Shown: positions 4,311 through 8,213 of the stretch, in pieces
How positions within the stretch are numbered: position 1 is the first letter of the stretch
Layout: each line of letters starts with the position of its first letter
Source: Bradyrhizobium sp. CB82
GTDB taxonomy: Bacteria; Pseudomonadota; Alphaproteobacteria; Rhizobiales; Xanthobacteraceae
Direction of reading: 5' to 3'
DNA length: 64,000 bases
Assembly (NCBI RefSeq): GCF_029714405.1
Contig: NZ_CP121650.1
Coordinates: forward strand, 4,903,001-4,967,000
Translations under genes and position numbers: made by a program
The notes under the pieces: model-generated
Database searches by the model: none
Told to the model about the DNA's origin: nothing
The model's input: only the letters and a program-made list of their open reading frames with translations

Positions 4311-5636
4311 ATGGATCAGACGGCTGCGCCCAAGGTCAGCTTCGTTTCGCTCGGGTGTCCCAAGGCATTGGTGGATTCCGAGCGCATCATCACGCGCCTG
4401 CGCGCCGAGGGCTACGAGCTCGCCCGCAAGCATGACGGGGCCGATATCGTCATCGTTAACACGTGTGGCTTCCTCGACAGCGCCAAGCAGGAATCGCTCT
4501 CGGCGATCGGCGAGGCCATGGCCGAGAACGGCAAGGTGATCGTGACCGGCTGCATGGGCGCCGAGCCTGAGCAGATCGAGCAGGCCTATCCCGGCGTTCT
4601 CTCGATTTCGGGGCCGCAGCAATACGAGTCCGTGCTCGATGCCGTGCACCGGGCGCTGCCGCCGGCGCACAGTCCGCATCTCGACCTGGTGCCGCCGCAG
4701 GGCATCAAGCTGACGCCGCGGCACTACGCCTATGTGAAGATCTCCGAGGGCTGCAACAACCGCTGCACTTTCTGCATCATCCCGAAGCTGCGCGGCGACC
4801 TGGTGTCGCGTCCCGCCAACGATGTGTTGCGCGAGGCCGAGCGGCTGGTCGGCGCCGGCGTCAAGGAGCTGCTGGTCATCTCGCAGGACACGTCGGCCTA
4901 TGGCGTCGACGTCAAATATGCCGAGAGCCCGTGGAAGGACCGCCAAGTCCGCGCCAGATTCCTCGACCTTGCGCGCGAGCTCGGCGAGTTGGGGGCCTGG
5001 GTCCGGCTGCAATATGTCTACCCCTACCCGCATGTCGACGAGGTCATCGCGCTGATGACCGCGGGCAAGGTGCTGCCCTATCTCGACATCCCCTTCCAGC
5101 ACGCGAGCCCCGAAGTCCTCAAAGCGATGAAGCGGCCGGCGGCGCAGGACAAGACGCTGGCGCGGATCAAGCGCTGGCGCGAGGAATGTCCCGATCTCAC
5201 CTTGCGCTCGACCTTCATCGTCGGCTTTCCCGGCGAGACCGATGCGGACTTCGCCTATCTGCTCGACTGGCTTGATGAAGCCGAGATCGATCGCGTCGGC
5301 TGCTTCAAATACGAGGCGGTGGCGGGCGCCACCTCCAACGCGCTGCCCGGCGCTGTCCCGGATGAGGTGAAGCAGGAGCGCTACAACGCGCTGATGGCGC
5401 GCCAGCAGAAGATTTCGGCGCGGAGGCTCAAGCGCAAGATCGGCACCCGCCAGCAGGTCATCATCGACGAAATCGGCCCGACCGTTGCGAAAGGCCGCTC
5501 CAAGGCGGATGCGCCGGAGATCGACGGCGCCGTTTATCTGTCGAGCCGCCGGCCCTTGCGCGTCGGCGAGATCGTCACCGCCAAAATCGAACGCGCCGAT
5601 GCCTACGATCTGCACGGCTCCGTCGCGGGATTCTAG
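4311..5636 (+). CDS. rimO: Ribosomal protein S12 methylthiotransferase RimO
   Basis: RimO is a radical-SAM enzyme that adds a methylthio group to a conserved Asp of ribosomal protein S12. The 441-residue protein has the three parts of the family. The N-terminal UPF0004 domain carries cluster Cys at about 16, 52 and 81. The radical-SAM motif CNNRCTFC places Cys at about 148, 152 and 155. The C-terminal TRAM-like segment ends [10 protein letters not shown]. Conserved stretches include [12 protein letters not shown] and [10 protein letters not shown], and the length is normal. The gene is divergent from nasT and appears monocistronic. Confidence 0.93.
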
Positions 5637-5649
5637 GTCAGCGCTCCAC

Positions 5650-6594
5650 TCAGGCGAGCCAGGTCGGCACCCAGCGCTCCGGCCGCGGCGCACGGGCAAG
5701 ATCCGCCTTCGCCTCGGATAGCTCCGCAGGCACGTCCTCGATCGTCGGGCGCTCGTCATAGTCGAAGCGCGGCATGACGCGGCCGTCGGCGTAGAGGCCA
5801 AAAACCATCGAGTACCAAAGCCCGAGCTCCGGCTGCGCGCGGCGCATGTCGTCGCGCAATTCACGCAGCAACGGCTCGATCGCCTTGGCCTCCTTCAGCG
5901 GTCGCGGTCCTGGCCAGTTGAGGCGCGCCTGATATTGCGCACCGACGATCGCGACCTCGAATGACGTCTTATCCCAGGGGTTCTTGCCCTTCGGTAAGTG
6001 CGCGGCAAGCCGCCAGCCGAGCTCGGCCATCATCGGATGATTTGACCAATACTCCTCGCGATCCCTGCTCCACTTCGCCATGAAGCCACGGAAATCCGGC
6101 AGGCGCGACGATGCCTGCTCGAGCGGCGTCAGCCCCACATCGGCGAGCCGCTGTTTCAGCCACAACGCAAGTTCGACCATCTGGCATTCGACATCGTCGT
6201 GCGGCGCCAGATCGTGCCACGAGTGCTCGAATTCCTGGGCCGCGAGCTTGGCGATAAGCCAGGGCAGCGACGGCGCGAGGATGTCGTATTCGCCCTCCGA
6301 TCCAAGTCCGACGATCGGCGGATCGGCGCTGTCGAGACCCTCGCCATACCAGGCGCCGACGGCGGAGCCATCCGGCAGGCGCATGAACAGGGCAAACTTG
6401 TCGCGCAATGGGCTGCTGTCGAACAGTGGCGCGGTATCGGCGAACTGCCCGCGCAGATCGAAGCAGCCGACGCTGCCCCAGGGTCGGCCCTCGAGCCAGC
6501 CTGCAAAATCGAGCAGCAGGGGCGGCGCCTCTGTGCCGGGCGGAAAGGCTCGGCGGATGCTGTCGACGTCGATGCAATAGATGGGATCGGACAA
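5650..6594 (-). CDS. Conserved hypothetical protein, possible two-domain cytosolic protein
   Basis: I do not recognise this 314-residue protein with certainty. The N-terminal half (about 1-130) contains LLLDFAGWLEGRPWGSVGCF and SEGEYDILAPSLPWLI, which look like a SUKH/SMI1-style module. The C-terminal third, with LWYSMVFGLYADGRVMPRF then DYDERP, recalls DUF600/YezG-like immunity folds. No signal peptide or membrane segment is seen. It is convergent with rimO, 13 bases apart. If it is related to immunity modules, a partner toxin is not nearby. Treat the domain suggestions as weak resemblance. Confidence 0.6.
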   Translation of the reverse strand: MSDPIYCIDVDSIRRAFPPGTEAPPLLLDFAGWLEGRPWGSVGCFDLRGQFADTAPLFDSSPLRDKFALFMRLPDGSAVGAWYGEGLDSADPPIVGLGSEGEYDILAPSLPWLIAKLAAQEFEHSWHDLAPHDDVECQMVELALWLKQRLADVGLTPLEQASSRLPDFRGFMAKWSRDREEYWSNHPMMAELGWRLAAHLPKGKNPWDKTSFEVAIVGAQYQARLNWPGPRPLKEAKAIEPLLRELRDDMRRAQPELGLWYSMVFGLYADGRVMPRFDYDERPTIEDVPAELSEAKADLARAPRPERWVPTWLA

Positions 6595-6778: not shown

Positions 6779-6806
6779 TTGACAAGCGTTGCCCTTCGGC
6801 TGTATG
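6779..6806 (+). promoter_or_regulatory. Probable sigma-70 promoter of the arginine-leader operon
   Basis: A perfect -35 TTGACA (6779-6784) is followed after 16 bases by TGTATG (6801-6806) as a weak -10. Transcription would then begin near 6813, a few bases before the leader-peptide ATG, so the leader mRNA would be almost leaderless, as known for trpL in rhizobia. Confidence 0.5.
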
Positions 6807-6816
6807 GCGGCGCCCC

Positions 6817-6906
6817 ATGATCTCGTCTCGGACCCACCGCCGCGCAGCTTTCCGTCGTCGCACCCGCGACGATGATGGGTTGCGCCATGTCCGACGACGC
6901 CGCTGA
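6817..6906 (+). CDS. Arginine-rich leader peptide (putative attenuator)
   Basis: This 29-codon ORF starts at ATG 6817 and stops at TGA 6904-6906. Twelve of its 29 codons encode Arg (positions 5, 8, 9, 13-15, 17, 23 and 26-29), including a terminal run of four. It lies between a TTGACA promoter and a perfect terminator hairpin, 110 bases before an acetylornithine-transaminase-like gene. This is the layout of ribosome-mediated attenuation, where stalling at Arg codons under arginine or charged tRNA-Arg limitation would prevent termination. Segment 6853-6861 can pair with 6866-6874 or, alternatively, with 6892-6899, offering mutually exclusive structures. The role is inferred from architecture. 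Confidence 0.7.
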   Translation: MISSRTHRRAAFRRRTRDDDGLRHVRRRR

Positions 6907-6929
6907 AGCACTGACATCAGCAGAGTTTT

Positions 6930-6970
6930 CGAGAAGGCCGCACCCGCAAAGTGCGGCCTTCTCGCTTTTT
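6930..6970 (+). terminator. Perfect 14-bp terminator hairpin (attenuator)
   Basis: The arms CGAGAAGGCCGCAC (6930-6943) and GTGCGGCCTTCTCG (6951-6964) pair without mismatch around a seven-base loop, followed by CTTTTT (6965-6970). It begins 23 bases after the leader-peptide stop and 46 bases before the downstream start codon, so it would block the aminotransferase gene unless relieved. Confidence 0.85.
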
Positions 6971-7016
6971 CGTGCGCATCTTCCCCGAACTTTCCCTGCC
7001 CCAAGAGGAGTCTGAC

Positions 7017-8213
7017 ATGACCAACGCTACCCATCCGTACGATGCGCTGATGGACATCACGGCTCGGCCGAAGGCCGTGTTCGTCCGCGGCGCGGGCTCC
7101 TACCTCTGGGACGACAGCCGCAAGCGCTATCTCGATTTCGTGCAGGGATGGGCGGTCAACTGCCTCGGCCATTCGCCGCCGGCGGTTGCCGATGCGCTGT
7201 CCGCGCAGTCCAGGCGGCTTTTGACGCCGAGCCCGGCCTTCTACAACGAGCCGAGCCTGAAACTCGCGCAGGCGCTGGTCGAGACCAGTTGCTTCGACCG
7301 GGTGTTCTTCGCCAATTCCGGCGCGGAGGCCAACGAGGGCGCGATCAAGTTGGCGCGCAAGTTTGGTAGCGTGCACAAAGGCGGTGCGTTCGAGATCATC
7401 ACCTTCGCAGGCGGCTTTCACGGCCGCACGCTCGCCACCATGTCGGCGTCGGGCAAGAAGGCCTTTGAGCCGCTGTTCGAGCCGAAAGTCTCGGGCTTCA
7501 AGAGGGCGACGCTGAACGACATCGCCTCCGTCGAGGCGCTCGTCACCGCCAACACCGTGGCCGTGATGCTCGAACCGATCCAGGGCGAGGCCGGCGTATG
7601 GCCGGCGACCGACAAGTTTTTGCAGGAGCTGCGCGCACTCACCAAGGCGCATGGCCTCTTGCTGGTCTTTGACGAGATCCAGACCGGCATGGGCCGGACG
7701 GGAAAGCTCTTCCACTACGAGCATGCCGGGGTTGCGCCCGACATCATGACGCTCGGCAAGGGCATCGGCGGCGGTGTGCCGCTCGCCGCTTTGCTTGCGA
7801 CCGAGCACGCCTCATGCTTCGAGCATGGCGACCAGGGCGGTACGTTCAACGGCAATCCCGTGATGTGCGCGGCCGGGCTCGCGGTGCTTGAGGAAGTCGG
7901 CAAGCCGGAATTTCTGAAGGCCGTCACCGACGCCGGTCTGTTGCTCGAGAGCGAGTTGCAGAAGGTCTCGGCACGGCACGGGCTCGGCGAGGTGCGCGGC
8001 CGCGGCCTGCTCCTGGCGCTCGACCTGAAACTGCCGATCGCACCGGCGATTGTCGCGCAGGCATTCCAAGAAGGTGTCCTGCTCAATGCGCCACAGGTCG
8101 ACACGCTGCGCTTCATGCCGGCGCTCAACGTCACGCGCGAGGAGATCGCCGAGATGATCGATTGCCTCGATGCGATCCTGACCAAAGCGGGCGCGGCACG
8201 GAGGGTCGCGTAG
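7017..8213 (+). CDS. Class III PLP aminotransferase, acetylornithine-transaminase (ArgD)-like
   Basis: This 398-residue fold-type I, class III PLP enzyme shows [19 protein letters not shown], the glycine-rich FAGGFHGRT and the PLP-binding [11 protein letters not shown]; the catalytic Lys lies in [17 protein letters not shown]. ArgD interconverts N-acetylornithine and N-acetylglutamate semialdehyde in arginine synthesis. Related family members use GABA or other omega-amino acids, so the substrate is not certain. The ATG at 7017 has AAGAGGAG just upstream; a longer frame to 6951 would start inside the terminator. The upstream arginine-rich leader and hairpin make an arginine-linked role more likely. 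The gene is monocistronic as far as seen. Confidence 0.82.

Follow-up and report, generated by a model that had tools for sequence, protein, structure and literature searches.

Leader-peptide attenuators are textbook cases of regulation for Trp, His, Leu, Ile, Thr and Phe, and T-boxes, which work without a leader peptide, sense by binding tRNA. For arginine, a full-text literature search that covered few subscription papers found no attenuator that senses the amino acid by Arg codons and acts through an intrinsic terminator before an arginine-biosynthesis gene. The initial annotation of the locus described below regarded an arginine version of such a system as not commonly described. The attenuator survey by Naville and Gautheret does not use the word arginine in its main text, nor do two B. 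japonicum papers on transcripts and small ORFs. In its accessible text, a survey of Actinobacteria, which mentions arginine T-boxes, describes arginine operons as having no conserved RNA structure in front of them (PMC1262725). In principle, the closest described systems would be the rhizobial trpL attenuator and the leader of Salmonella speF. In Sinorhizobium meliloti and Bradyrhizobium, the trpL leader ORF starts at the transcription start (PMC7298713, PMC10117765). In the speF leader, two consecutive Arg codons of orf34 (SpeFL) lead to arginine-dependent expression, and ribosome pausing changes the folding of the RNA (PMC6386406).

The window analysed here is a stretch of 64,000 nucleotides from Bradyrhizobium sp. 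CB82, to which all positions refer. On its + strand, an argD-type gene is very probably controlled by an arginine-responsive, ribosome-mediated transcription attenuator, a reading drawn from sequence comparison and RNA modelling; from these we infer the response to arginine and its direction, as well as a leaderless start, translation and stalling. The parts listed in the initial annotation can all be read directly and in the order given there: a TTGACA −35 box (6779-6784), a 29-codon ORF with 12 Arg codons, four of them at its end (MISSRTHRRAAFRRRTRDDDGLRHVRRRR and a stop codon, 6817-6906; Arg at positions 5, 8, 9, 13-15, 17, 23 and 26-29), a 14-pair hairpin with CTTTTT, and an aminotransferase gene (ATG at 7017, stop at 8213). 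The hairpin is an intrinsic terminator of 14 perfect pairs with a 7-nt loop (6930-6964), and the U tract CTTTTT (6965-6970) follows it directly. The leader ORF has no Trp codon, tandem Trp codons being a trait of rhizobial trpL.

TATGGC (6803-6808), 18 nt after TTGACA, is a weak candidate for the −10 box, and the CTGTA that begins in front of it and extends into it is conserved; a generic promoter scan listed no sigma-70 site. Since TTGACA lies 36-38 nt before the ATG, transcription would be expected to start at about this codon, and the leader ORF is probably leaderless. Upstream, a 314-codon ORF that matches no NCBIfam model occupies 5650-6594 on the − strand, and the nearest gene-like long + strand ORF ends at 5636. 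Because the intervening ORF lies on the − strand, the terminator, placed between the inferred promoter and argD, serves no upstream gene by ORF reading. An Rfam identity for the element was rejected, as only a tRNA elsewhere in the window reaches its gathering score in Rfam 15. The best sub-threshold match, Thr_leader (6885-6967, + strand; 26.3 bits against a gathering score of 55), probably stems from the terminator hairpin, and 17 distant argD loci gave no Rfam match.

The downstream gene had been called ArgD-like, and its product bears this out, with 647.7 bits against NF002985 (PRK03715, acetylornithine transaminase; cut-off 568), while it barely passes TIGR00707 (argD; 412.5 against 410.05 bits). 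It is one of two argD-type genes in the genome; the product of the other (G000:C1:8804037-8805188; loci L002 and L164) is 42% identical, and no Arg-rich ORF was listed upstream of it by the script.

Folding and the alignment of 86 leaders define three mutually exclusive helices (1:2, 2:3 and 3:4) with the candidate control codons in region 1, the energy control on this arrangement being weak. Region 1 (6829-6861; codons R5-R15), the 5′ strand of hairpin 1:2, comprises CGGAC, GCGC and CGUCGUCGC. Region 2 (6866-6898) supplies both the 3′ strand of this hairpin (6866-6893) and the 5′ strand of the antiterminator (6877-6898), and region 3 (6925-6945), the antiterminator 3′ strand, overlaps the 5′ arm of the terminator, hairpin 3:4. 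When folded alone, the leader ORF of the window forms one long hairpin (−42.0 kcal/mol). In hairpin 1:2, CGGAC (R5) pairs with GUCCG, GCGC with GCGC, and the RRR codons CGUCGUCGC with the Asp codons GCGACGAUG, which explains the otherwise odd Asp run of the peptide. Once the 5′ side is removed, GGGUUGCGCC...UCCGACGAC is predicted to pair with GUUUUCGAGAAGGCCGCACCC, that is, the terminator 5′ arm and the bases preceding it, and this helix is capped by a small stem, GCUGA/UCAGC (6902-6921), that overlaps the leader stop codon. Across the 86 leaders, 92.6% of cells are paired in hairpin 1:2, 94.3% in the antiterminator with its cap (99.1% in the cap stem itself) and 97.0% in the terminator; with the partners slid by one to three columns, the best values are 60.1% (1:2), 43.2% (2:3) and 51.4% (3:4).

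Compensatory changes, which the initial annotation proposed to look for in the hairpin, are few. Of the 86 rows, 81 have G-C and 5 have A-U at pair 6860-6867 (alignment columns 47-54) of hairpin 1:2. A tree built from the first 240 nt of argD shows two changes from G-C to A-U at this pair, each on both sides together and with no one-sided intermediate; the change turns the third Arg of RRR into His. Overall, covariation is sparse: the pairs changed on both sides number two (1:2), one (2:3) and three (3:4), and 251, 480 and 160 of 500 shuffles, respectively, matched or exceeded these counts. When cells changed on both sides are counted instead, the values (9, 9 and 18) are above those of all 500 shuffles in each helix, in a control that leaves relatedness in. 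Additionally, the leaders' own 2:3 duplexes have a slight stability advantage over swapped ones (−14.52 vs −14.22 kcal/mol; none of 2000 permutations was as low, uncorrected for relatedness). Random synonymous recoding of four leaders retained much of their behaviour because Arg and Asp codons pair readily (mean antiterminator probability 0.79, 0.59, 0.70 and 0.70 against a native 0.83 each), and native hairpin 1:2 surpassed just 91%, 92%, 42% and 18% of the recoded versions in stability. After this control, folding energy was rejected as proof of attenuation, and we take the energies only as consistent with the model.

In the proposed mechanism, transcription would start at or beside the leader ATG, and a ribosome would translate the leader behind RNA polymerase. 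With enough Arg-tRNA, the ribosome would reach the stop codon, region 2 would be covered or back in hairpin 1:2, terminator 3:4 would form and transcription would stop at about 6970. When Arg-tRNA is scarce, the ribosome would stall at one of R5, R8, R9, R13-R15 or R17 and block hairpin 1:2; region 2 (6877-6898) would then pair with region 3 (6925-6945), no terminator would form, and argD would be transcribed.

This behaviour was modelled by folding the RNA 3′ of a stalled ribosome as far as region 3 extends, for 137 distinct leaders (L065 dropped, repeats merged), grouped by length into 28, 29 and 30 codons. An A site anywhere from codon 6 to codon 18 gives a modelled antiterminator probability above one half in at least 99% of the leaders in every length group, and an A site at the stop codon does so in none of the 137. 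In this model, the candidate control codons are most likely R8, R9, R13-R15, R17 and, in part, R5, that is, those within R5-R17. The initial annotation had instead stressed the four terminal Arg codons, which are probably not the control codons, as they lie in region 2, which pairs with the terminator arm. The separation between on and off is imperfect: with the A site placed at R23 and at H24, the window retains values of 0.62 and 0.61, and among the modelled 30-codon leaders 62% remain above one half at codon 24 (Arg). In the ribosome-free RNA, the antiterminator probability is 0.35 for the window and averages 0.04, 0.33 and 0.71 in the 28-, 29- and 30-codon groups. Given values such as 0.35 and 0.71, leaders of this kind may be leaky in the absence of translation, unless hairpin 1:2 is the first to form as the RNA is made.

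The DNA at 6770-7100 matches 141 of 146 genomes of Bradyrhizobium, the genus of the window as judged by named records; the five without a match also lack this argD at 1e-100, and three of them are at most 81% complete. An intact leader was read in 138 of the 146 genomes, window included, and six more came from other genera of the family. These 144 were kept from 150 loci first read (L011-L040 and L045-L164), and 86 representatives were aligned (A1); L153, L161 and L163 were left out because no argD N terminus was found, and L160 (a different leader), L162 (upstream region truncated at a contig end) and L164 (the other argD) were excluded. TTGACA is present in all 144 leaders, 38 nt from the ATG in 129, 37 nt in 4 and 36 nt in 11. 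The initial annotation had named a lack of conservation of the ORF and free replacement of its Arg codons as grounds for rejection, and neither is observed: the ORF is conserved across Bradyrhizobium, and the central RRR codons encode Arg in 134, 143 and 139 of the 144 leaders. Three of the terminal Arg codons are kept in 143, 136 and 133 leaders, and the penultimate codon encodes R in 80, Q in 43, H in 17 and another residue in 4. A Val is invariant (144/144), the first Arg codon after it is CGA in 143 leaders, and the middle codon of RRR is CGT in 142, two codons that are uncommon in six ORFs of the window (5 and 13 of 147 Arg codons). At fourfold-degenerate sites, the 86 aligned leaders are 89.3% identical, as against 65.6% in the first 80 codons of argD, which argues for a constraint on the RNA beyond that on the peptide.

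Some loci depart from this picture. L153 (G070:C2:4517739-4518722) is a second, decayed copy of the leader that keeps TTGACA and a terminator-like hairpin and has lost the start codon and several Arg codons, and no argD N terminus was found in the stretch. A leader-like remnant without such an argD downstream lies on an 11783-base contig of a 75% complete genome (L163, L233). The record named Frankia sp. RB7 (L235) carries a typical Bradyrhizobium-type leader and an argD whose protein is 88% identical; its name is probably wrong.

A pattern scan for the 3′ half of the element on named genome contigs, blind to the gene, returned at least 119 stretches, and 80 of these were listed as loci. Among the 80 listed loci, 78 have this argD downstream, and leader and argD were both found in 77, the exceptions being a chance match (L232), the remnant L233 and a stretch that begins inside the leader (L259). 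Among the 80 listed records, 74 are named Bradyrhizobium; the others are metagenome-assembled genomes labelled Acetobacteraceae, Alphaproteobacteria, Rhodoplanes, Hyphomicrobiales and Bryobacteraceae (the chance match), and one record labelled Frankia. An RNA covariance search across the order gave some match at 0.05 or better in 146 of 397 genomes, with at least 135 bits only in 15 genomes of the window's genus and at most 37.2 bits in all others. Fifteen weak matches outside the genus (L184-L198) and seven in the window's own genome (L199-L205) were inspected: L199 is the reverse strand of the window terminator, and a loose Arg filter was passed by an ORF in L191, L197, L202 and L203 and by none in the other inspected loci.

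In a family-wide sample, the gene was found in 14 of 149 genomes at 1e-130, seven of them from the window's genus. The most divergent ArgD of this sample (G181; 63% identical) is preceded by the leader MQYASTNARRRRRARRFSAGAWDMRTR, closed by a stop codon, which begins 36 nt after a TTGACA and stands before another terminator. Relatives of the G181 ArgD were found in 16 of 397 genomes of the order, 8 of 367 of the class and 22 of 249 of the phylum (15, 2 and 6 from the window's genus). A set of 24 distant argD loci (L340-L362 and L168) was read with a rule, written after those leaders had been seen, that asks for a suitably placed ORF of 8-45 codons before argD containing three or more consecutive Arg. 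Such an ORF is present in 10 of the 24 (100 dinucleotide shuffles: mean 0.65, maximum 3), together with a strict terminator in 6 (mean 0.02, maximum 1); as the choice of gene start varied between analyses, the counts are 10 or 9 and 6 or 5. Examples, each ending at a stop codon, are MKKLNTLTNITSLRRRRS, MSPRTRIRVSRRRACV, MLNLANRNRRRRSPAALARAR and MNMIRTLLRRRSPLPLPGKPCA. The remaining 14 distant loci have no Arg run of three, and in nine of them (L347-L354 and L362) no leader was recognised by eye.

In the order of G950, the gene was found in 8 of 15 genomes, all eight loci (L342 and L392-L398) have a run of at least three Arg, and six of these leaders end in LRRRRS or LRRRRT. Folding of the last 75 nt before argD gives a hairpin over its ribosome-binding site in L341-L344, L392, L393, L396 and L397, which are alphaproteobacterial loci with Arg-run leaders. 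For L341, L343 and L344, no terminator passes the strict rule, and folding gives no clear antisequestor helix; in relatives of this type, the modelled structures suggest that the output may be translation rather than termination.

A further family, that of G1163, has the gene in 46 of 92 genomes (47 loci). Among the best 120 of 5627 matches, its ArgD is 95-96% identical to named Collimonas proteins, followed by those of Paraherbaspirillum, Glaciimonas, Herbaspirillum and Herminiimonas; as Collimonas belongs to the Oxalobacteraceae (Betaproteobacteria), we call these loci Oxalobacteraceae-type. A run of at least three Arg is present in 36 of the 47 (mononucleotide shuffles: mean 1.11, maximum 4), a terminator CCACAGG..CCTGTGG in 41, and both in order in 35, where the leader has the form M..LLRRRSPLPQPGKPCA and a stop codon before this other terminator. 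Four of the eleven misses (L366, L380, L403 and L409) still have a similar leader, in which the run is reduced to RR or one R, and L412 has an Arg run in an ORF unlike the other leaders and no terminator. Folding again places the Arg codons within a 1:2 hairpin, and after a stall region 3 is predicted to pair with GCCGUG in four of six folded leaders, in agreement with the conserved Pro-Cys codons CCGTGC; in L372 and L377 its predicted partner is a GCCUGG further upstream. The alignment of 25 such leaders (A2) contains no two-sided changes.

In these loci, the combination is nearly confined to argD. Before other ORFs of at least 150 codons, an Arg-run ORF with a terminator was found in none of 74 cases in the distant set and none of 76 in the G1163 family; in the pattern-scan set it was found in 1 of 810, which is a window-type leader seen from another ORF start. 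Regardless of a terminator, Arg-run ORFs precede 3, 2 and 34 other ORFs in the three sets. The same mechanical rule, with its cruder choice of gene start, finds run and terminator before 5 of 24 argD ORFs in the distant set, 25 of 30 in the G1163 family and 15 of 64 in the 80 listed pattern-scan loci, the last figure being probably an underestimate, since the rule picks the longest ORF start and requires five T within eight bases.

In our view, these dissimilar Arg-run leaders before the same type of argD in other lineages are the strongest support for attenuation. Together with the mutually exclusive helices and the conservation of 144 leaders, they uphold the attenuation geometry described in the initial annotation, and by sequence comparison this type of element is found well beyond Bradyrhizobium, the scope of that annotation. 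The best reading of the comparison is that the attenuator family goes with PRK03715-type argD and spans alpha- and betaproteobacteria. We lean slightly towards a still broader view, in which the window element would be one branch of an old, phylum-wide arginine attenuator family, inherited with PRK03715-type argD in alpha- and betaproteobacteria, that has preserved hardly more than consecutive Arg codons (often CGA CGC CGN) close to a probably leaderless start; in some branches, its output would have shifted from terminating transcription to masking the ribosome-binding site of argD.

Other ways of using an Arg-rich leader have to be weighed against codon-based attenuation. Fungal AAP and SpeFL are leader peptides known for nascent-chain arrest by free arginine or ornithine, and the Bradyrhizobium peptide might likewise stall in the exit tunnel on either compound, instead of its codons sensing Arg-tRNA. 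Conservation of the peptide within the genus, including the Val found in 144/144 leaders and the Asp run, would be in favour of such an arrest. However, the leaders of different lineages share mainly the Arg run, and the conserved non-Arg residues coincide with nucleotides that are paired in the models (the Asp run with the Arg run; CCGTGC in 4/6 folded Oxalobacteraceae-type leaders), and we consider this explanation improbable. The same retention of the Arg codons across lineages, and the presence of this argD behind the element in 78/80 listed loci found blind to the gene, argue against a sensor of general translation trouble, caused by antibiotics or other starvation rather than by a lack of arginine; Arg-Leu-Arg leader peptides have been linked to antibiotic-induced stalling, for instance before hflX (PMC8632094), but we regard such a role as rather less probable still.

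The products of the rhizobial trp attenuator, rnTrpL and peTrpL, act in trans (PMC7298713), and the strong conservation of the window-type leader would also be expected if its terminated RNA or peptide worked mainly in this way. Nevertheless, pairing in cis accounts for most of the conserved stretches, and the second copy without this gene (L153) is decayed, which makes a mainly trans-acting element the least probable of the alternatives, very unlikely as such, although action in trans may coexist with attenuation. An arginine-responsive attenuator acting in cis would explain how bacteria with this argD tune it to arginine supply, with leaders that keep their control codons while the remaining sequence turns over. 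The model gives predictions for single codons, for which Bradyrhizobium and Herbaspirillum-type strains are suitable test beds.

Several described systems share parts of this design. Arginine T-boxes are also a form of RNA control of arginine genes (PMC1262725). Pseudomonas carAB, an operon for arginine and pyrimidine biosynthesis, has a leader peptide (in P. aeruginosa) and suspected attenuation, but this is ascribed to pyrimidines, and arginine acts at the transcriptional level (PMC4997734). In rbfL of Staphylococcus aureus, a leader peptide senses arginine through Arg codons, as the present leader probably does; by contrast, its codons are rare ones, and scarce arginine leads to blocked translation of a biofilm regulator via the ribosome-binding site (PMC13009471). 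The uORFC-8-2 attenuator of cysS in Rhodobacterales, likewise alphaproteobacterial, combines a terminator with a leader ORF whose tandem control codons lie in the first stem, although these are Cys codons and the gene is one for a tRNA synthetase (PMC8632094). SpeFL resembles the window leader in its consecutive Arg codons and in the refolding that follows ribosome pausing, modelled in our case; it differs in controlling an ornithine decarboxylase via Rho, RNase G and masking of the ribosome-binding site, with no intrinsic terminator before argD (PMC6386406). The SpeFL (DUF2618) core HIRRT*HIMM, as quoted in PMC6386406, is absent from the window leader. Finally, rhizobial trpL (rnTrpL) has in common with the element described here a leader ORF with tandem control codons, a terminator and a biosynthetic gene downstream; the ORF is leaderless in trpL and probably so in the window, where the promoter spacing fits (PMC7298713, PMC10117765). 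Unlike trpL, the present leader has Arg instead of Trp codons, precedes argD instead of trpE, and lies with nearly the whole of its 29-codon ORF inside hairpin 1:2.
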